A DNA stretch of 20,058 bases from Anaerolineales bacterium UBA3940 (GTDB lineage Bacteria > Chloroflexota > Anaerolineae > Aggregatilineales > UBA3940). The stretch spans positions 1,148 through 21,205 of the forward strand of contig DGDY01000152.1 of assembly GCA_002385675.1 (NCBI GenBank), given 5' to 3'. How positions within the stretch are numbered: the stretch's first letter is position 1; the number at the start of each line of letters is the position of its first letter. Of the stretch, positions 3,189-19,541 are shown piece after piece. Under the pieces are notes generated by a model. That model was not told the DNA's origin, did no database searches, and saw only the letters and a program-made list of their open reading frames with translations. The position numbers were made by a program, and so were the translations under genes.

Positions 3189-4223
3189 TTGATCAACTGG
3201 CGACTTCTTTCCAGGCAGGTTGTGCTGTATCTTGCCGTCGGCGGATTGGCGTTGTATGCGGTCTGGCCCTGGCTACCAGGTGCGAACCGCGCCCAGCCGC
3301 GCACGATCGTTGTCTATGGCTTCAGCATCCTCGGCGAGGTGATGAACGACGGCGTCTTCCCGGCGTTTCAGGAACACTGGAAGGCCAGGACGGGCGAAGA
3401 TGTTGAGTTCATCTCCTCGTTTGGCGGCTCCGGGACGGTAACCAACCAGATCATCCTCGGTGTCCCGGCGGAAGTCGCTATCCTTTCCCTTGAGCTGGAT
3501 GCCCTGCGGCTTGTCGAAAGCGGGCGGGTCGACGGCTCTACCTGGCGGGAGTTGCCTCACGGCGGCATCTTAAACCGCACACCGTTCATCATCCTCGTCC
3601 GGCCCGGCAACCCGCGTCAGATCACCGACTTTGCAGACCTGACACAGCCCGGCGTGGGCATCATCCACCCCGATCCGCTGACGTCCGGCGGCGCTCAGTG
3701 GGCCATTCTTGCCGAGTATGGCAGCGAGCTTCGCGAGACGGGTGACCCTGCCCGCGCCTACGAGCAGCTTCTCGGTATCTGGCAGAACGTCACCAGCCAG
3801 GCTTCCTCGGCACGAGCGGCCCGAACCCAGTTCCAGAGCGGGTTTGGCGACGTCCTGATCACCTATGAGCAAGAGGTGACGTATGACATGCTGCGCGGTC
3901 AACTGGAAGGCGAGATCGTGTACCCCAAGAGCACAATCCTCAGCGAGCACGTGGTCGTCGTCATCGACGACAACATTCCGCGCGCCGACCGCGAGTTGAT
4001 CGACGCCTTCGTTGATTTCCTGTGGAGTGAGGAGGCCCAGCGCATCTTTGTCGAGTACGGCTTCCGCAGCGTTGACGAGACGCTGAATGTCGACGTCCCC
4101 TACTTTGGCGTCATTGACGATCCGTTCACGGTGGCCGATATGGGCGGCTGGCCGGAGGCCAAGCGCGAGATCATCGACGCTATCTGGAAGGATCGTGTGC
4201 TTCAGGAGGTTGGCAATGAATGA
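3189..4223 (+). CDS. sbp: Sulfate-type ABC transporter substrate-binding protein
   Basis: A 344-residue binding protein of the Sbp/CysP type, which captures sulfate or a related oxyanion outside the membrane. A hydrophobic segment at about residues 11-28 serves as signal peptide or anchor; there is no lipobox Cys. Family marks include SFGGSG (77-82), the NRTPFIILVRPGNP strand, PGVGIIHPDPLTSGGAQW with the oxyanion-binding SGG (166-168), and GDVLITYEQE. The start is TTG, chosen because AGAAGGAG ends 7 bases upstream and the signal segment follows directly. The stop overlaps the next gene's ATG by 8 bases, so the genes are translationally coupled. Sulfate is the most likely ligand; thiosulfate, molybdate or tungstate cannot be excluded. 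Confidence 0.88.
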   Translation: MINWRLLSRQVVLYLAVGGLALYAVWPWLPGANRAQPRTIVVYGFSILGEVMNDGVFPAFQEHWKARTGEDVEFISSFGGSGTVTNQIILGVPAEVAILSLELDALRLVESGRVDGSTWRELPHGGILNRTPFIILVRPGNPRQITDFADLTQPGVGIIHPDPLTSGGAQWAILAEYGSELRETGDPARAYEQLLGIWQNVTSQASSARAARTQFQSGFGDVLITYEQEVTYDMLRGQLEGEIVYPKSTILSEHVVVVIDDNIPRADRELIDAFVDFLWSEEAQRIFVEYGFRSVDETLNVDVPYFGVIDDPFTVADMGGWPEAKREIIDAIWKDRVLQEVGNE

Positions 4224-5049
4224 TAGTCTGCCCCGCGTGCGCCGCCGGAGTGCGGGCTCAGTTCTCCCGGTTTCGCTGCTGCTGCTTGTGCTGCTACCGC
4301 TGCTCTTGATGCCGCTGGCCGCGATTTACATCTTCGCAGGGAGCAGCGGCCTGGCGGGGTTCTGGGAAGCCCTCCGCCAGCCGGACGCGCAATTCGCGCT
4401 GCGCTTCTCGGTGCTGATTGCCTTCGCTACGGCGATTATCAACGGGGTACTCGGGACGTTTGCCGCCTACGTCCTGTCGAAATACCGGTTCCGCGGGCGT
4501 GAGGCGCTGCTCGTCATCGTCAACCTGCCGGTGGCTATCCCCACCGTTGTCGTCGGTACCTCCCTGTTGCTGCTGTGGGGGCCTATCGGCCTGCTGGGGC
4601 GCGTCCTTGACCCGCTGGGCATCCAGCCGATGTTCATGCCTGCTGGCGTCCTGCTGGCCCACCTGTTTGTGACGTTCCCCTACATGCTGGGCGCGGTCAA
4701 ACCCGTGCTCGACGAGCTGGAGGTCACGTATGAGGAGGCCGCCTACACCATCGGCGCGAATCGCTGGCAGACGTTCCGTTTTGTCATCCTGCCTGCGCTG
4801 CGCGGCGGCCTGTTTGCGGGCACGCTGCTGACCTTTGCCCACTCCCTGGGCGAGTTCGGCGCGACCGTGCTGGTCAGCGGCAACCTGAGGCTCCGCACCC
4901 AGACCGCGCCGCTCTATATCTTTGCACAGTTTGAGGCCGGCAACATCGAGACGGCTAACGCCGTCGCAGCGGTGCTGGCTACGCTCTCGTTCGTGCTGTT
5001 CCTCATCCTGCAACGATTCACGCAGCGGGTTGTAGAAAGGCCATCGTAG
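4216..5049 (+). CDS. cysT: Sulfate-type ABC transporter permease (CysT-like)
   Basis: A 277-residue inner-membrane permease with about six hydrophobic helices, the first at residues ~15-41. The cytoplasmic EAA loop that docks to the ATPase is clear: EEAAYTIGANRW starts at residue 173 and runs to LPAL near 195. HSLGEFGAT and the following LRTQTAPLYI segment match the CysT/CysW/ModB family. The start at 4216 is favoured over an upstream in-frame codon at 4087, because AGGAGG lies at 4204-4209 and the upstream extension reads as an out-of-frame copy of the binding-protein gene. It overlaps the gene before by 8 bases and the gene after by 1 base. No CysW partner is present, so the permease probably works as a homodimer, as ModB does. 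Confidence 0.9.
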   Translation: MNDSLPRVRRRSAGSVLPVSLLLLVLLPLLLMPLAAIYIFAGSSGLAGFWEALRQPDAQFALRFSVLIAFATAIINGVLGTFAAYVLSKYRFRGREALLVIVNLPVAIPTVVVGTSLLLLWGPIGLLGRVLDPLGIQPMFMPAGVLLAHLFVTFPYMLGAVKPVLDELEVTYEEAAYTIGANRWQTFRFVILPALRGGLFAGTLLTFAHSLGEFGATVLVSGNLRLRTQTAPLYIFAQFEAGNIETANAVAAVLATLSFVLFLILQRFTQRVVERPS

Positions 5050-6941
5050 TGTCGATAGTCCTGACCAACCTTACCAAGCGGTTTGGCCGCGTCCTCGTCG
5101 TCAACAACGTCTCGCTGTCGATACCGGAAGGCGAGTTGTTCGTGCTGCTCGGCGGGAGCGGAAGCGGGAAGAGCACGATCCTCCGCATGATTGCCGGCCT
5201 GACGGAGGTCGATTCCGGGCGCATCGAACTGGGCGGGCGCGACGTCACCGACCTGCCGCCTCAGGCCCGCAACGTGGGCTTCGTCTTCCAGAACTACTCG
5301 ATCTTCCGGCACATGACGGTTGCCGAGAACGTCGAGTTCGGGCTGCGCATCCGTGGAGCCCCGGCGGCGGAGCGGCAGCAGCGCCGGGACGAGCTTCTGG
5401 AGCTTGTCGGTCTGACAGGCCTCGGCGACCGGTACTCCAACCAGCTTTCGGGCGGCCAGCAGCAGCGTGTGGCGCTGGCCCGCGCGCTGGCATACCAGCC
5501 CGAAGTGCTCCTGCTCGACGAGCCATTTGGAGCCCTCGACGTGAAGATCCGCGCCCAGCTCCGGGCGAGCCTGAAGGAGATTCAGAAACGGCTGGGCATC
5601 ACGACGATCCTCGTCACGCATGACCAGGAGGAAGCCTTTGAGCTGGCCGATCGAATCGGGCTGATCGAACGCGGCTCTCTGATCGAGGTCGGAACCCCGC
5701 AGGACCTTTACTACCGGCCCCAGACAGAATACACAGCAGTGTTCATCGGCGGGGGCAATGTGCTGGTCGGGCGCAACGTCGACAACGCGATCAGCCTCGG
5801 TTCTGTCCGGCTGCCGTTCCCGGAAGAGGCGCCTGTGCACGAACCGGGCGCGCCGGTGCGGGTCATGTTCCGCCCGGAGACCGTTGTTGTCAAATCCTCG
5901 CCGGATCAAATGGGCCAGGCCCACGTGCTTGGCCGGGGGCGCGTGATTGAGCAGGTTTTTACCGGCCCGGCCCGGCGTATGCGTCTGGAGATAGAGGGCT
6001 TGCAGGGGGTGCGCCCCCTCGTGCCGCCACCGGCCTACGGCCAACTGGCTGCCCATATTGAGGCGCTCGTTCCCGGCAGCGAGGCAGAGGCTATCTCCTC
6101 ATCGGCAGTGGGCGAACTGTGGGTGGGCCTGACGGATTACCATGTGCTCGCTCCCACCGGCCCGAAGATCCTCATCTGCAGCGACGGCTCTGCGGTTGAC
6201 GAAGCCGCCGCCTTTGGCATGCGGCTTGCACGCGCGGCACACGGCCCTGCGACGCTGCTGGCAGTCGTGCCTGCGTCCGGCGAGGTCGCAGCGGCCCGCG
6301 CCCGGCTTGAGTCCCTGATCGAGCAGCAGGGTATGCAGGGCCATTCCCAGCTTGTGGCGAGCGTCCGCCAGGGGATCGCTCACGCCGAAATCCTGACGGA
6401 GACCCAGGAAGGCTCCTACGAGATGGTGGTGCTGGGCCGGTCGCCCGACGCAGCGGGCAGGCCGCTGGGCATCGGCACGACCGGGCAGGAGATACTTGCG
6501 CAGGCCCGCGTGCCGGTGATGCTCGTATCGTCGGGGCGCAGCACCATCGAGCGGATTCTGATCTGCACGGCGGCGGGCGAGCCCGGCAAGAGCGACGTCC
6601 TGTTTGGTGGCCGCCTCGCCCGCTGGACGGGCGCTTTCGCCACGATATTCCACGTCCATGCTGCCGGGGCACCGGCTCATGAGCGCACGCGTTCCGAGAA
6701 GCACTTGAGACAGGCCCAGCGCTCGCTGGAGATGCTCGGCGTCAAGAGCGAGTGCGCCATCGGGGATGGCGAGCCGCTGCGGGTGATTCTCGAAAAGGCC
6801 GAGGCGGGAGATTACGACCTGCTTGTCATCGGGGCGCCCGCGCCGCGCGTCCCTCAGCGATTTGTCTGGCGTGACCTGGCGACCCAGATCGTCGCCGGTA
6901 CGCAGCGGCCCGTGGTCGTCGTGCCGATGCAGGAGCGGTGA
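5049..6941 (+). CDS. cysA: Sulfate-type ABC ATPase fused to two universal stress protein domains
   Basis: A 630-residue protein, about 270 residues longer than ordinary CysA/ModC ATPases. Residues 1-~235 are the nucleotide-binding domain: Walker A GGSGSGKST (35-43), Q-loop Gln81, signature LSGGQQQR (133-140), Walker B LLLDEP (154-159), D-loop GALD (161-164) and switch His191. Residues ~236-368 form a TOBE-like beta domain ending in GLTDYHVLAP. Residues ~373-495 are a first UspA-like domain (ILICSDGS with Asp379, EMVVLGRS, GIGTTGQEIL, VPVMLV). Residues ~501-627 are a second one (ILICTAAG, YDLLVIGAPAP, RPVVVVP). Neither has the full Gx2Gx9G(S/T) ATP-binding motif; the first keeps a partial form. 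The start is GTG, overlapping the permease stop by one base (TAGTG). The USP pair could sense nucleotides or stress and gate import; that is inference. Confidence 0.92.
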   Translation: MSIVLTNLTKRFGRVLVVNNVSLSIPEGELFVLLGGSGSGKSTILRMIAGLTEVDSGRIELGGRDVTDLPPQARNVGFVFQNYSIFRHMTVAENVEFGLRIRGAPAAERQQRRDELLELVGLTGLGDRYSNQLSGGQQQRVALARALAYQPEVLLLDEPFGALDVKIRAQLRASLKEIQKRLGITTILVTHDQEEAFELADRIGLIERGSLIEVGTPQDLYYRPQTEYTAVFIGGGNVLVGRNVDNAISLGSVRLPFPEEAPVHEPGAPVRVMFRPETVVVKSSPDQMGQAHVLGRGRVIEQVFTGPARRMRLEIEGLQGVRPLVPPPAYGQLAAHIEALVPGSEAEAISSSAVGELWVGLTDYHVLAPTGPKILICSDGSAVDEAAAFGMRLARAAHGPATLLAVVPASGEVAAARARLESLIEQQGMQGHSQLVASVRQGIAHAEILTETQEGSYEMVVLGRSPDAAGRPLGIGTTGQEILAQARVPVMLVSSGRSTIERILICTAAGEPGKSDVLFGGRLARWTGAFATIFHVHAAGAPAHERTRSEKHLRQAQRSLEMLGVKSECAIGDGEPLRVILEKAEAGDYDLLVIGAPAPRVPQRFVWRDLATQIVAGTQRPVVVVPMQER

Positions 6942-8052: not shown

Positions 8053-9402
8053 ATGCGCTTATCACGATTTATCTTACAACTGAAGACTGTAGACTGGCAG
8101 GCCGCCCGGCAGGCGCTGCGACTGGGCGTGGTGCTGCTTGTGCTGCTCGTCGCCGTGCCCGGCTTGCGCCCCGACCCGAACAGCCCGGCGTTCCAGTCGC
8201 TCGGCTACGCGCGAGACTACCTGTTCGACTTCGTCTCATGGGAGGCGCAGGCACTCTTCGACAAGCTGACCAACGCCATCATCGCGCCGCAGCGCTTCAT
8301 GCCGCCGGAGGAGCAGACTCGCTTTGTGCGCGACTACCTGGCGCTCGTCGCGGAGATCCAGCGGCTCGAACAGCACGTGTTCGAGATCTACAGCGACCCG
8401 ATGGTCGAGGACCCGGAGGAGGCCAGCTACTACATCCGCGTGCAGCGTGACGAGATGCGCACCGAGCAGCAAAGACGCCAGGCCATCGCGGAGGCCATCG
8501 TTGAGGCACAGGTCGCTGAGGTGCTGGTCGACTACGGGTTTGGCCCCCGCAGCGGCGTCTGGCCGCCGGTGGCGATCCGCTTCACGCAGCTCCCGACCGT
8601 GCTGATCATCTCCCCGCGTGACCGCATCGAGCGTATCGGCGGCTACCCGCTCCAGCATGGCATCACCGTCGAGGAGCGTGAGCGCATCGAGGCCAACGTC
8701 GACGCCGACCTGGGCGTGTCGTCGCTCGTGACGCCCATCGGCGGGTTGGCGATGTGGCCCGCGATGCTGGTCGAGACGAGCTATCTGCCCGCGGCCTATG
8801 ATGTCAGCGCGCACGAGTGGGCGCACCATTACCTGGCCTTCTACCCGATGGGCTTTAACTACGGCACGACGCCGGAACTGTACACGCTCAACGAGACGGT
8901 TGCCAGCATTGTCGGCGCGGAGATTAGCTGGGCTGTGCTCGACCGCTACTACCCCGACCTTGCTCCGCCGCCGCCTGACTACACCCCCATCGTAGAGGAG
9001 GTCAAGCCGGTTGAACCGCTCTCAGCGGACGAGCCGCCTGTGTTCGACTTCCGGGCCGAGATGCGCGAGACGCGCATCCGCGTGGATAACCTGCTTGCCG
9101 AGGGGCGGATCGAGGAGGCTGAGCGTTACATGGAGATGCGGCGGCAGCAGTTCGTCGCCAACGGCTACCAGATCCGTAAGCTGAACCAGGCCTACTTCGC
9201 GTTTCACGGGTCGTATGCCGACGCGCCGGGCGCAACCGGGGCGGATCCCATCGGCCCGGCGCTGCGCGAGCTGCGCTACTATAGTGGCTCGCTCGTGGAC
9301 TTCGTCGCCGAGGTGCGGGACATGACCACCTACCAGCAGGTTGTCGCTGCCCTTGAGTCACACCGCGCGCTGGCGGCAGCAGAGGGCTATGGCACGAACT
9401 GA
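8053..9402 (+). CDS. Membrane-anchored HEXXH putative zinc metalloprotease
   Basis: A 449-residue protein with no name I can assign. An N-terminal hydrophobic helix at residues ~21-38 should anchor it with the rest outside. Residues ~85-160 are strongly helical and charged. The zinc motif HEWAH is at 254-258, in the setting YDVSAHEWAHHYLAF. NETVASIVGAE follows, so Glu281, 23 residues after His258, is the probable third ligand, as in gluzincins. The motif MWPAMLVETSYLP just before it is hydrophobic. The C-terminal third holds a proline-rich linker (APPPPDYTP), a helical region and a conserved-looking NQAYFAFHGSYAD segment. PrmC starts inside its last 14 bases. Peptidase activity is inferred from the motif alone. 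Confidence 0.8.
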   Translation: MRLSRFILQLKTVDWQAARQALRLGVVLLVLLVAVPGLRPDPNSPAFQSLGYARDYLFDFVSWEAQALFDKLTNAIIAPQRFMPPEEQTRFVRDYLALVAEIQRLEQHVFEIYSDPMVEDPEEASYYIRVQRDEMRTEQQRRQAIAEAIVEAQVAEVLVDYGFGPRSGVWPPVAIRFTQLPTVLIISPRDRIERIGGYPLQHGITVEERERIEANVDADLGVSSLVTPIGGLAMWPAMLVETSYLPAAYDVSAHEWAHHYLAFYPMGFNYGTTPELYTLNETVASIVGAEISWAVLDRYYPDLAPPPPDYTPIVEEVKPVEPLSADEPPVFDFRAEMRETRIRVDNLLAEGRIEEAERYMEMRRQQFVANGYQIRKLNQAYFAFHGSYADAPGATGADPIGPALRELRYYSGSLVDFVAEVRDMTTYQQVVAALESHRALAAAEGYGTN

Positions 9403-12194: not shown

Positions 12195-12992
12195 ATGCCC
12201 CTGACCTGGCCGGATGCCCGGCACATCTACCTCTCCCCACACCTTGACGATGCCGTGCTGAGCTGCGGAGGCACGATTTACGAGCAGGCGCAGGCCGGCG
12301 AGCCGGTCGCTGTGGTGACGGTCTTTGCCGCCAGCCCGCCCGCCGATCGCCCGCTCTCCGCCTTTGCCGGGGAGCTTCACGCGCGGTGGCGGGCGTCCGC
12401 CGCTGAGAGCGGAGCGAGCTTTTCCGACCCCGTGGCGGTGCGCCGCCGTGAGGACGAGCACGCCATGCTTGCCCTGGGCGCGAACGTGCGGGCCGTCCAC
12501 CTCGATCTGCCCGACTGCATCTACCGCTATGCGAGCGACACCGGCGAGGCGCTGTACGCCAGTGAGGAGGCGATCTTCGGCGCGGTGCACCCCGACGACC
12601 CGGCGCTTGCGGAGCTATCCGCCGTGCCCGCTCTGCCGGAGGGCAGCACGCTGTACGTGCCGCTGGCCATTGGCCATCACGTCGATCACCAGTTGGTTCA
12701 CCATGCCGTGAGAGGGTGGAAGCTGCCGCCGGGGCGGGTGCGCTACTACGAGGACTACCCCTATGCGGTGCAGCAGGGCGAGCCGGTCGAGACGATGCTG
12801 GCGCGGTGCGGGGCCTGGCAGCCGATCGTGACCCCGCTCTCCGACCGGGCGCTTGAGGCCAAGATCCGGGCGGCGGCGGCTTACCAGTCGCAGATCAGCA
12901 CGTTCTGGCAGAGCCGCGAGGCGATGGCGGAGGCGCTGCGCGATTACGCGCGGCAGGTTGGCGGCGAGCGAGTCTGGGTGCCTGCCGGTTAG
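12195..12992 (+). CDS. PIG-L (LmbE-like) family deacetylase
   Basis: A 265-residue zinc-dependent N-deacetylase of the PIG-L fold, which usually removes acetyl from an N-acetylglucosamine-type sugar. The N-terminal metal motif is PHLDDA (15-20) instead of AHPDDE: His16 and Asp19 are zinc ligands and Asp18 the expected base. RRREDEHAMLALG (83-95) and GHHVDH (160-165, third ligand His162 or His165) are the other family marks. The ATG lacks a clear Shine-Dalgarno. Its last 4 bases overlap the 3' end of the opposite-strand darA-like gene. The substrate is unknown; no thiol or lipid biosynthesis genes are adjacent. Confidence 0.88.
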   Translation: MPLTWPDARHIYLSPHLDDAVLSCGGTIYEQAQAGEPVAVVTVFAASPPADRPLSAFAGELHARWRASAAESGASFSDPVAVRRREDEHAMLALGANVRAVHLDLPDCIYRYASDTGEALYASEEAIFGAVHPDDPALAELSAVPALPEGSTLYVPLAIGHHVDHQLVHHAVRGWKLPPGRVRYYEDYPYAVQQGEPVETMLARCGAWQPIVTPLSDRALEAKIRAAAAYQSQISTFWQSREAMAEALRDYARQVGGERVWVPAG

Positions 12993-13315
12993 ATCTGCTC
13001 GAAGCGCTCGACGTTGAGCACAAAGACGGTCGCGCCGCCGACCGGCACTTCAACCGGCGTCGCCCACTGCGAAAGCGGCTCAGCAGGGTCGGGGGCGGAG
13101 GGCAGCAGCCGCGTCCGCTCGCGGCACGTCTGCCGCAGTATTGCGAGCACATCCTCCACGCGGTTATCCTCCACCCCGGTCAGGAAGGTGGTGTTGCCCT
13201 GCCGGAAGAACCCGCCGGTCGAGGCGACGCGCGTCACCCGGTGCCCTGCTTTCACCAGCTCCCGGATCGCGTTGTCTGCGTCGATATCCTGTACGACTGC
13301 CAGTATAAGCTTCAT
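12989..13315 (-). CDS. darA: Cyclic-di-AMP receptor protein (DarA/PstA/YaaQ family)
   Basis: A 108-residue PII-like trimeric protein that binds c-di-AMP in the cytosol. The whole sequence follows the YaaQ pattern: MKLILAVVQDIDAD start, LVKAGHRVTRVASTGGFFR (the TGGF nucleotide loop), NTTFLTGVEDNRV, and PVEVPVGGATVFVLNVERFE at the end. Length is normal. There is no ribosome site. Instead a perfect TATAAT lies on the minus strand 6 bases before the ATG, so the mRNA is probably leaderless. It converges with the PIG-L gene with a 4-base overlap. No diadenylate cyclase gene is in the window. Its downstream partner is unknown in this family. Confidence 0.93.
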   Translation of the reverse strand: MKLILAVVQDIDADNAIRELVKAGHRVTRVASTGGFFRQGNTTFLTGVEDNRVEDVLAILRQTCRERTRLLPSAPDPAEPLSQWATPVEVPVGGATVFVLNVERFEQI

Positions 13316-17269: not shown

Positions 17270-19144
17270 ATGACCGCACTCAACCATGCCGCACGCCGCT
17301 TCTCGCCCGCGCTGCGCCCGCTCGTGCTGGCGCTGGCGGTCGGCCTGCTCGCCGCCATGCTGGGCGGGGGCGTCCTGCACCGGCTGGAGCTTTTCACCGG
17401 CGACGTGCTGTTCCGGCTGCGCGGCCCGCTTCATGATGATAGCGGCATTGTGCTCGTCGCCATCGACGACGCTTCCTTCGCGCACAACGATCTCCAGTGG
17501 CCCTGGCCCCGCAGCTACCTGGCCCGCATCGTCGACAGTATTGCCGCCGGTGACCCGAGCGTAATCGTCGTCGATGTCCAGTTCTATGAACCCTCGACGC
17601 CGGAGGAAGATGCGCGGCTTGCGGAGGCCATTCGCGAGGCGGGGAACGTGGTGCTGGTGAGCAACATCGCCACCGAGCGGCGGCAGGGGGTGGTGCTGCG
17701 GCAACTCAACCAGCCGATCCGGGAGCTGCGCGAGGCGGCGGCTGCGGTCGGGCTGGCGCAGTTCCAGCGCGACGACGATGGCACGCTGCGCCGGATGCTG
17801 GCCTTTGCCCGCCATAACGGGAAGCTTTACCCCTCGCTGGCGATGGAAGCGGCCCGGATGCACCTCGGCGTGGAGCGCTTCTTCGTCGCCTCGCCGGACG
17901 ACGTGTGGATCGGCGCGCACCATATCCGGCTGGACGACCAGTATCTCCCCGTGAACTTTCGCGGCCCGGCAGAGATGACCATCCCGTATTACTCGGCCTA
18001 CCAGGTGGCGGACGGGCTGGTAGACCCCGCTGTGTTCACCGGGCGGATCGTCATCATCGGCGCGACGGCGGAGACCATCCCCCTGTATGACAGCTACCCG
18101 ACGCCCTTTGGTAGCTCGCCCCCGATGTCCGGTGCGGAGGCCAACGCCCATGCCATCGACACGATCCTGCAGGGGCGGCCCCTGCGCCCGGCGTCATGGC
18201 TGGCGCAGTTGGGCGTGTCGCTGGCGGCGGCCCTCGCGGCAGGCGTGCTCGCCCGGTGGGTAAAGCCGCTCACCGGGCTGGCGCTCGTGGTGGTGCTGGC
18301 GCTTGCATACCTCGTGCTGAGCTGGGCGCTTTTTGCCTACGCCCGCGTCATCCCACCGCTCGTTGGGCCGAGCCTCGCGCTGGCGCTGGTGTACGTTGCC
18401 GGGACGACGGTGCAGGTCTATGACGAGCAGCGCCAACGGGCGCGCGTGCGGGCGCTGTTCGAGCGGTACGTCTCCCCCGCCGCCATCGACGAGATGCTCA
18501 GCCAGCCGGACAGCGTATCGGTGAGCGGGCAGCGCCGCGACGTAACGGTGATGTTCAGCGACATTCGTGGCTTCACCGCGCTCTCGGAAAAGCTGCGACC
18601 GGAGGAGGTCGTTGCGATCCTCAACGACTACCTCGGCGCGATGACGGAGATCATCTTCAAGTACGGCGGCACGGTGGACAAATTTGAGGGTGATGGCATC
18701 CTCGCCATCTGGAATGCGCCGCTCGCCGTTGAGGACCACCCGACGCGGGCGGTAGAGTGCGCGCTGGAGATGACGCGCCGCCTCGCCGAGATGCAGCAGG
18801 GCTGGACGGCGACCGGGCAGCAGGCGCTCAAGAGCGGCATCGGCATCAGCACGGGGCCGTGCTTTGTGGGCAACATCGGCTCGTCACAGCGCATGGATTA
18901 CACCGTTATCGGCGATACGGTGAACCTCGCCGCGCGGCTCGAAGCGCTCACCAAAGAACTGGGCTTGCAGATCGTGTACTCCGAAGCAACGCACCGCCAG
19001 CTTGCCGGGCACATCCGCTCGCGCTTTGTGACCTCGGCGAAGGTCGCCGGGCGCGAGCAGCCGGTGAACGTCTACACCGTGCTGGGGGTAGACGAGCCTC
19101 AGGCAGCACAGCCGGAAGCTGAGGCAGCCCCGGCACGGGCCTAG
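17270..19144 (+). CDS. CHASE2-domain class III adenylate cyclase
   Basis: A 624-residue membrane sensor that makes cAMP from ATP. A first helix (residues ~17-36) leads to an extracytoplasmic CHASE2 domain (~40-300: DVLFRLRG, VLVAIDDASF, VIVVDVQFYEPS, GRIVIIGATAE, NAHAIDTILQG). Three helices follow between ~308 and 380, then a short linker and the catalytic domain (~420-605). Metal-binding Asp431 (FSDIRGFT) and Asp475 (KFEGDG) are present. Lys471 and Asp543 (MDYTVIGD) are the adenine-selecting pair. Asn552 and Arg556 (NLAARL) stabilise the transition state. The catalytic site is therefore complete and ATP-type. The last ~15 residues are an Ala/Glu/Pro tail. The signal sensed is unknown. Confidence 0.95.
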   Translation: MTALNHAARRFSPALRPLVLALAVGLLAAMLGGGVLHRLELFTGDVLFRLRGPLHDDSGIVLVAIDDASFAHNDLQWPWPRSYLARIVDSIAAGDPSVIVVDVQFYEPSTPEEDARLAEAIREAGNVVLVSNIATERRQGVVLRQLNQPIRELREAAAAVGLAQFQRDDDGTLRRMLAFARHNGKLYPSLAMEAARMHLGVERFFVASPDDVWIGAHHIRLDDQYLPVNFRGPAEMTIPYYSAYQVADGLVDPAVFTGRIVIIGATAETIPLYDSYPTPFGSSPPMSGAEANAHAIDTILQGRPLRPASWLAQLGVSLAAALAAGVLARWVKPLTGLALVVVLALAYLVLSWALFAYARVIPPLVGPSLALALVYVAGTTVQVYDEQRQRARVRALFERYVSPAAIDEMLSQPDSVSVSGQRRDVTVMFSDIRGFTALSEKLRPEEVVAILNDYLGAMTEIIFKYGGTVDKFEGDGILAIWNAPLAVEDHPTRAVECALEMTRRLAEMQQGWTATGQQALKSGIGISTGPCFVGNIGSSQRMDYTVIGDTVNLAARLEALTKELGLQIVYSEATHRQLAGHIRSRFVTSAKVAGREQPVNVYTVLGVDEPQAAQPEAEAAPARA

Positions 19145-19154
19145 CCGGTGGCCC

Positions 19155-19183
19155 TTGCCAGCCGGGGCAGGGCGTGCTACTCT
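19155..19183 (+). promoter_or_regulatory. Promoter of the small membrane protein gene
   Basis: TTGCCA (19155-19160), a 17-base spacer, then an extended -10 TGCTACTCT (19175-19183). The leader would be about 28 nt. It begins right after the cyclase stop, so the small gene can be expressed independently. Confidence 0.5.
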
Positions 19184-19217
19184 TTGCATCGTTGAACTCA
19201 GAGCGTGCGGAGAGCAC

Positions 19218-19541
19218 ATGTCACAGCAGCGCATCACCAACCGGAAGCTGATCATCCTGTGGGCCACGGTCGTCGTGGCCTATGTGCTGCTTGTCGTGTT
19301 GATGAACCCGGTGCTGATGATGCCGGAGGCCCGCCAGCGGGCGATCTTCGAGCGTGCCTCGGCGGCGGTATGCGAAGCCCGTGCCACGATACCGGCCTTC
19401 AGAGAGGATGGATCGCCCGAAAACCACGTGGCGATTGGCGTCCAGCAGGCAGCGGACGAGTTTGGCCTCACCTACCGGGCCGCTTATCTCATATACCGGC
19501 ATGGCGTCGATGCCGGTTGGCCGCTCGCCTGTGAGGACTGA
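19218..19541 (+). CDS. Small single-pass membrane protein of unknown function
   Basis: A 107-residue protein I do not recognise. A basic start (QQRITNRK) precedes one strong membrane helix at residues ~11-34 (LIILWATVVVAYVLLVVLMN). The remainder, with a predicted out-facing helix MPEARQRAIFERASAAVCEARA and a DEFGLTYRAAYLIYRHGVDAG segment, is soluble. Two cysteines (in AAVCEA and PLACED) could pair. The start at 19218 is chosen because GGAGAG lies just upstream; an in-frame codon at 19155 would read through the promoter region. It follows the CHASE2 cyclase in the same direction with a 73-base gap and ends before the metG leader. A link to the cyclase is possible but not shown. Confidence 0.7.
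   Translation: MSQQRITNRKLIILWATVVVAYVLLVVLMNPVLMMPEARQRAIFERASAAVCEARATIPAFREDGSPENHVAIGVQQAADEFGLTYRAAYLIYRHGVDAGWPLACED

Follow-up and report, generated by a model that had tools for sequence, protein, structure and literature searches.

A CysA-type ABC importer ATPase with a conserved C-terminal tandem universal stress protein tail

INTRODUCTION

In certain ATP-binding cassette (ABC) importers the ATPase ends in a C-terminal regulatory domain. In OpuA this is a CBS domain, of another fold than the tail described here, which answers to ionic strength or cyclic-di-AMP (c-di-AMP). MetNI and ModABC are inhibited through such domains, a C2 domain in MetN and a further fold in ModC (PMC10710835). 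The MetN and ModC domains answer to methionine and to molybdate/tungstate, and our comparison with them concerns domain position alone. Here we describe a gene in a 20,058-nucleotide stretch of Anaerolineales bacterium UBA3940 (Chloroflexota; contig DGDY01000152.1), which was analysed whole and is called the window. It encodes a CysA-type ATPase that runs in one frame into two universal stress protein (USP) domains, USP1 and USP2. Statements credited to accessions in parentheses refer to excerpts of those papers.

The closest described ATPase is CysA of the sulfate/thiosulfate ABC importers, for example Alicyclobacillus CysA (1z47), which shares the nucleotide-binding domain (NBD) and TOBE-like region over residues 1–369 of the window protein (39% identity in Foldseek). 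Like CysA systems, the window has a sulfate-type substrate-binding protein (SBP) and permease adjoining. Relative to CysA, the window protein adds a tandem USP of about 260 residues, falls short of the TIGR00968 cut-off, and belongs to an operon type in which a single permease gene stands in place of CysT and CysW.

USPs coupled to transporters have been described (PMC10710835, PMC12159084), with no ABC importer ATPase named in the excerpts, and within its excerpt a 2023 review counts no UspA–transporter fusion as experimentally characterised with regard to transport regulation (PMC10710835). The tandem-type USPs TTHA0350, UspE and Rv2623 are free proteins, unlike the fused tail. TTHA0350, the nearest solved tandem USP, has an ATP motif in its first unit and a degenerate one in its second, yet two ATP are bound (PMC3673472); the fused family has mostly lost this motif and has GEPGKxD in unit 2. 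Rv2623 of Mycobacterium tuberculosis is a proposed negative regulator of the ABC transporter Rv1747 (PMC5549992), but these are separate proteins linked through an FHA domain, and Rv1747 is an exporter, unlike the importer ATPase considered here.

The tails of the cation-chloride cotransporters (KCC, NKCC and NCC, with 3g40 as a prokaryotic case) have the same tandem USP-like regulatory fold at 6–16% identity, but these are secondary transporters that have no ABC ATPase. In the KCC1 tail, which binds ATP/ADP, lysines from strand beta1 and from the beta1-alpha1 loop lie close to the phosphates (PMC8280820). Searches of an open-licence library that were aimed at a USP-tailed ABC importer found none in the titles and abstract openings of the papers listed. 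UspA fusions to transporters have been recorded repeatedly.

A CONSERVED ATPASE–USP FUSION

Our reading, to which we give a probability of roughly 0.5, is that the window protein serves as ATPase in a sulfur-oxyanion importer (most likely for sulfate or thiosulfate) and has a conserved cytoplasmic tandem-USP regulatory domain. Directly established are the fusion, its conservation, its position on a single branch of the tree, its partner genes and a conserved loop in USP2. The function of the tail is one that we infer from sequence, a structural model and analogy.

The frame is free of stops over all 630 residues (Table 1). The Pfam ABC_tran match covers residues 18–160, and the NBD has Walker A, Q-loop, LSGGQ signature, Walker B and H-switch, all invariant in alignment A1 (108 rows). 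In the TOBE-like region R275, E277 and G306 are invariant in the same rows; the TOBE_2 match is weak, and NBD and TOBE-type region together have the CysA fold. The remainder gives two Usp stretches at 65.1 bits against a Pfam cut-off of 24, with membership of the USP family (PF00582) and a USP fold. The AlphaFold model of the whole protein has a pLDDT of 92.5 and a pTM of 0.90, and in it strand 502–507 and helix 514–527 flank the GEPGK loop of USP2.

The initial annotation, made from the letters of the window, had described this architecture as a one-frame CysA-like ATPase and TOBE-like region (residues 1 to about 368) followed by two USP domains (about 373–495 and 501–627), and the description holds; the Pfam search that it proposed for the C-terminal half returned the Usp match above the cut-off and not a blank. 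It also had the USP domains replace or extend the usual C-terminal domain. They extend it; replacement is ruled out by the CysA alignment, which continues to residue 369.

A protein search with words from residues 360–630, in which 7997 candidates were scored, gave 246 proteins at E <= 0.001, and 108 of the 120 listed are 600–660 aa long. Across 84,980 species genomes, 488 relatives were confirmed, a count that may take in unfused ones, and the best 80 loci were kept. ATPase and USP lie in one open frame in 75 of these 80 (73 of the 75 being at least 574 aa), and in the other five the match stops at the locus end. By record titles the carriers are Chloroflexota, Acidobacteriota, Neomarinimicrobiota, Eremiobacterota, Desulfarculales, Planctomycetota and others, mostly metagenome-assembled genomes, so that an individual phylum label may come from wrong binning. 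Herpetosiphon isolates also carry the fusion, among them Herpetosiphon aurantiacus with a complete genome and a frame of 643 aa, and for some relatives the product line of the automatic annotation already names both halves (P0073). How far the fusion extends, a check suggested at the outset, is thus answered by a conserved family across several bacterial groups and not by a lone case.

That the fusion is artificial, with ATPase gene and tandem USP gene brought together by an assembly chimera or a missed stop, is refuted, since it recurs in many separate assemblies (the 75 of 80 loci) and in the complete H. aurantiacus genome, and the frame has no stop; what chance remains for such an artefact is practically nil.

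Of 301 Chloroflexota genomes, 11 gave a full-length match to a TOBE–USP profile in frames of at least 640 aa; judged by their neighbouring genes, six of the 11 are Herpetosiphon-like. The profile matched in 21 of 247 Acidobacteriota genomes. The NBD of the clade occurred in 20 of these 247, as 21 NBDs each within a frame of 533–797 aa. None of the 21, which stood above a self-chosen clade threshold of E 1e-130 with eight candidates scored per genome, was an unfused clade member; G448, which has a USP-profile match, is absent from this NBD list. Beyond the centre genome itself, no full fusion match was found in the phylum of G011 (1 of 148) or that of G014 (1 of 149). In a tree of the ATPase part, a single branch (SH-aLRT 99) parts 37 fused rows from 23 unfused rows, the latter drawn from Chloroflexota only. 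The tree fits a single origin of the fusion, and the tail, once gained, appears to have been kept.

Table 1. Features of the fusion gene and its operon in the window, and porin-like genes at related loci
Feature	Position or locus	Strand	Remarks
ABC ATPase with C-terminal tandem USP	5049..6941	+	630 aa, GTG start
Nucleotide-binding domain, residues 1–235	5049..5753	+	Pfam ABC_tran E 4.8e-38
TOBE-like region, residues 236–370	5754..6158	+	alignment with CysA 1z47 reaching residue 369
USP1, residues 372–495, variable unit, partial ATP loop in the window protein	6162..6533	+	
USP2, residues 499–628, conserved unit	6543..6932	+	best Usp stretch 501–626
Beta1-alpha1 loop of USP2, family-specific by alignment, residues 504–525, including G510-E-P-G-K514-x-D516	6558..6623	+	
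Sulfate-type substrate-binding protein	3189..4223	+	listed start TTG; Pfam SBP_bac_11 E 2.8e-31
Single sulfate-type permease	4216..5049	+	ATG at 4216; TIGR00969 sulfate permease subfamily match
Porin O/P-like gene near fusion operon	L020, L026, L050, L056, L059, L066, L068, L071, L072, L077		

PARTNER GENES AND SUBSTRATE

The permease gene starts inside the SBP gene (overlap of 8 bases), and the GTG of the fusion shares one base with the permease stop (TAGTG); with overlaps this tight, the three genes appear to form one operon. The permease scores 245.8 bits against TIGR00969 (cut-off 240; run from 4219). The SBP scores 155.3 bits against TIGR00971 (cut-off 155.5) and 157.6 against PRK10752 (cut-off 288). 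Its closest solved structure is the sulfate-binding protein 1sbp (E 3.3e-43), which we take to be the Salmonella-type protein; of the sulfate contacts that we presume for 1sbp, the Ser and Ser-Gly-Gly positions are kept and the Asp11 position is not. The earlier description of an importer ATPase is supported, with sulfate-type partner genes in one tight operon. The ATPase probably powers uptake of sulfate-like ions.

Two operon types occur in the family. Type A, that of the window, has an SBP, one permease and the fusion; type B has an SBP, two permeases (CysT/CysW-like) and the fusion before or after them. With the SBPs from the loci separated into types by score, 27 of 29 type-A SBPs lie in loci with one permease match and the other two in loci with two, and 41 of 43 type-B SBPs lie in loci with two permease matches and the other two in loci with one. 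Type-A importers (3189–5049 in the window, and relatives) have one permease gene, not two, and an SBP with a conserved YGFSI near its start; the type-A permease is presumably a homodimer. In 10 of the 80 loci a gene resembling phosphate-selective porin O/P (PF07396) lies near the fusion operon, an assignment made by a Pfam run on the L071 gene alone and by similarity for the other nine. The operon types and the porin-like genes fit uptake of an inorganic oxyanion.

THE TWO USP UNITS

Conservation was evaluated over 181 aligned family members. At least 80% agreement is reached in 32 columns of USP2 and in eight of USP1, whose median identity to the window protein is 0.37. The exact GEPGKxD of USP2 occurs in 148 of the 181; when the set is thinned to 125 at 70% identity, 100 still have it. 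Residue by residue, G510 is present in 179, K514 in 175 and D516 in 170 members, and G510 is the sole residue invariant in A1 outside the ATPase and TOBE part. As the alignment has it, the loop is specific to the family. Judged by conservation, the weight falls on USP2, with its conserved columns and GEPGKxD loop, and not on the variable USP1.

For ATP binding we tested the USP motif G-2x-G-9x-G-(S/T) and a looser form consisting of the first Gly and the final Gly-Thr. In the window protein the strict motif was found in neither unit and the loose form in USP1 only, so the motif reading of the initial annotation (part of the loop kept in USP1, nothing of it in USP2) was right for this protein. 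Its extension to a working USP1 with USP2 as a mere partner is doubtful across the family, where USP1 varies (Asp379 is present in 98 of 181) and USP2 holds the loop. Nor does loss of the motif in USP2 prove loss of binding, because TTHA0350 has two ATP bound in spite of its degenerate second motif (PMC3673472).

The partial motif kept in the window USP1 bears on a rival in which the tail is an energy sensor, with USP1, USP2 or both binding ATP/ADP and import tuned to the energy state. The initial annotation put forward energy- or stress-dependent gating as an idea, a review suggests energy sensing for UspA fusions (PMC10710835), and the KCC1 tail is an ATP/ADP binder (PMC8280820). The window USP1 aligns with TTHA0350, the binder of two ATP (PMC3673472), and in a 281-aa group of free tandem USPs the unit 1 motif is intact. 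The family as a whole is a poor fit, with the strict motif in 8 of 181 USP1 and 2 of 181 USP2 units and the loose form in 37 and 13, and with Ala508 of USP2 aligned to the Asp of the second unit of TTHA0350; we regard an energy sensor as unlikely.

A c-di-AMP sensor is very improbable. It would resemble the USP domain of KdpD, a c-di-AMP binder (PMC8214093), and the window does encode a c-di-AMP receptor (CdAMP_rec), but the KdpD-type motifs taken from that source, SxS-x(15-25)-FTAxY and [AGC]xSxSx2N, were found in 0 of 181 members, the latter being sought in either unit.

FREE TANDEM USPS BESIDE ANION TRANSPORTERS

A search with the tail alone returned 114 proteins, many of which resemble fusions truncated where a contig ends, together with a set of free tandem USPs some 276–298 aa long. 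In most rows of the 281-aa group the second unit reads LICTAAGEPG and continues with Leu, in contrast to the Lys of the fused family.

The genomic neighbours were evaluated at 19 free tandem USP loci, the best TOBE–USP profile matches from the genomes (the five best free matches of one scan and the 14 free matches of another). In 15 of the 19 the USP gene lies at most 150 bases from a same-strand gene resembling Na_Pi_cotrans (PF02690; 13 loci) or TauE (PF01925; two loci), families named by a Pfam run on four representatives. Weaker USP matches served as controls, and 0 of 16 had such a transporter gene. This contrast is only descriptive because the Na_Pi and TauE queries were drawn from four of the 19 tested loci and the controls were weaker matches. 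Seven of the 15 positives are near relatives (L091, L092, L101–L105), and collapse at 60% identity leaves 13 groups (L098 included), nine of them positive. Among three further free matches, L152 and L185 adjoin an Na_Pi-like gene and no such gene stands in L150, which is 3.8 kb long and has an interrupted frame; this brings the Na+/Pi- or TauE-type neighbour to 17 of 22 loci overall. L091–L105, L152 and L185 present an apparent anion-transporter/USP gene pair. The second-unit loops of the transporter-adjacent free USPs are related to the loop of the fused family.

THE ROLE OF THE TAIL

Regulation, proposed for the tail from the start, is still its likely role by inference. In the oxyanion-importer reading, two ATPase subunits would bring two tandem USPs, or four units, below the NBD dimer. 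USP1 would act mainly as a pseudo-dimer partner, and the GEPGKxD loop of USP2 would bind a small anionic ligand, for example an adenine nucleotide, one of the nucleotides of the sulfate pathway or the oxyanion itself. The loop stands at the start of helix alpha1, which is a phosphate-contact position in HUP-fold proteins, and K514 lies in the loop that corresponds to the KCC1 beta1-alpha1 loop. Binding would alter the set or closure of the NBDs and turn uptake down or up. By analogy, the precedents of the KCC1 tail, TTHA0350 and MetNI/ModABC suggest ligand binding by GEPGK and control of NBD closure by the tail.

Several observations weigh on the other side. The ATPase is below the sulfate-ATPase cut-off (TIGR00968, 316.5 against 342.75), and its E-value is better for PhnT2 than for TIGR00968, so the substrate is not certain; it scores under the curated cut-off in all 25 families shown of 195. 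GEPGK did not turn up in the free USPs beside transporters, where the second unit has, for example, LVCAAGGP or LVCSGGEK, and five of the 22 free tandem USP loci are without such a transporter gene. The GEPGKxD loop may be conserved for contact with the NBD or TOBE region and not for a ligand. The classical ATP motif being rare in both units, the tail may be purely structural.

This last point leads to what ranks as the main rival, a clamp for dimerisation or stability that takes no ligand and whose loop packs on the NBD or TOBE region or against the twin chain. The drift of USP1 and the scarcity of ATP motifs agree with it, the pTM of 0.90 points to a fixed domain arrangement, and dimers built from tandem units are known for tandem USPs (PMC3673472). 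A charged, glycine-rich loop would in our judgement be unusual as a packing patch, and the 281-aa USPs retain LICTAAGEPG with no ATPase attached, albeit with Leu in place of the Lys. We hold the clamp to be possible but rather doubtful.

A bolder form of the oxyanion-importer reading is put forward tentatively, and we think it rather unlikely. Here a clade of oxyanion importers would be gated by the tandem-USP tail, with GEPGKxD as a new ligand site that replaces the ATP motif and reads adenosine 5'-phosphosulfate/3'-phosphoadenosine 5'-phosphosulfate (APS/PAPS) or ATP/ADP for feedback, and the related free USPs would serve Na+/Pi and TauE transporters. If true, the tandem USP would regulate inorganic-anion transport in prokaryotes generally, as a counterpart to the tails of animal cation-chloride cotransporters. 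The fused family could connect bacterial tandem USPs with those regulatory tails, and it would make USP sensing on transporters directly testable. It is a clean case for this, with a confidently folded conserved tail, unfused CysA for comparison, a cultured host in Herpetosiphon aurantiacus and one loop to mutate.

OTHER GENES IN THE WINDOW

Four further frames, all on the + strand, gave no Pfam match at the thresholds used: 39–785 (248 aa), 2254–2913 (219 aa), 8053–9402 (449 aa) and 19155–19541 (128 aa). The gene at 12989–13315 (-) encodes the c-di-AMP receptor (PF06153, E 3e-37), and by this match the organism probably uses c-di-AMP. The frame at 17270–19144 (+) combines a CHASE2 domain (PF05226) with a class III nucleotide cyclase domain (PF00211).
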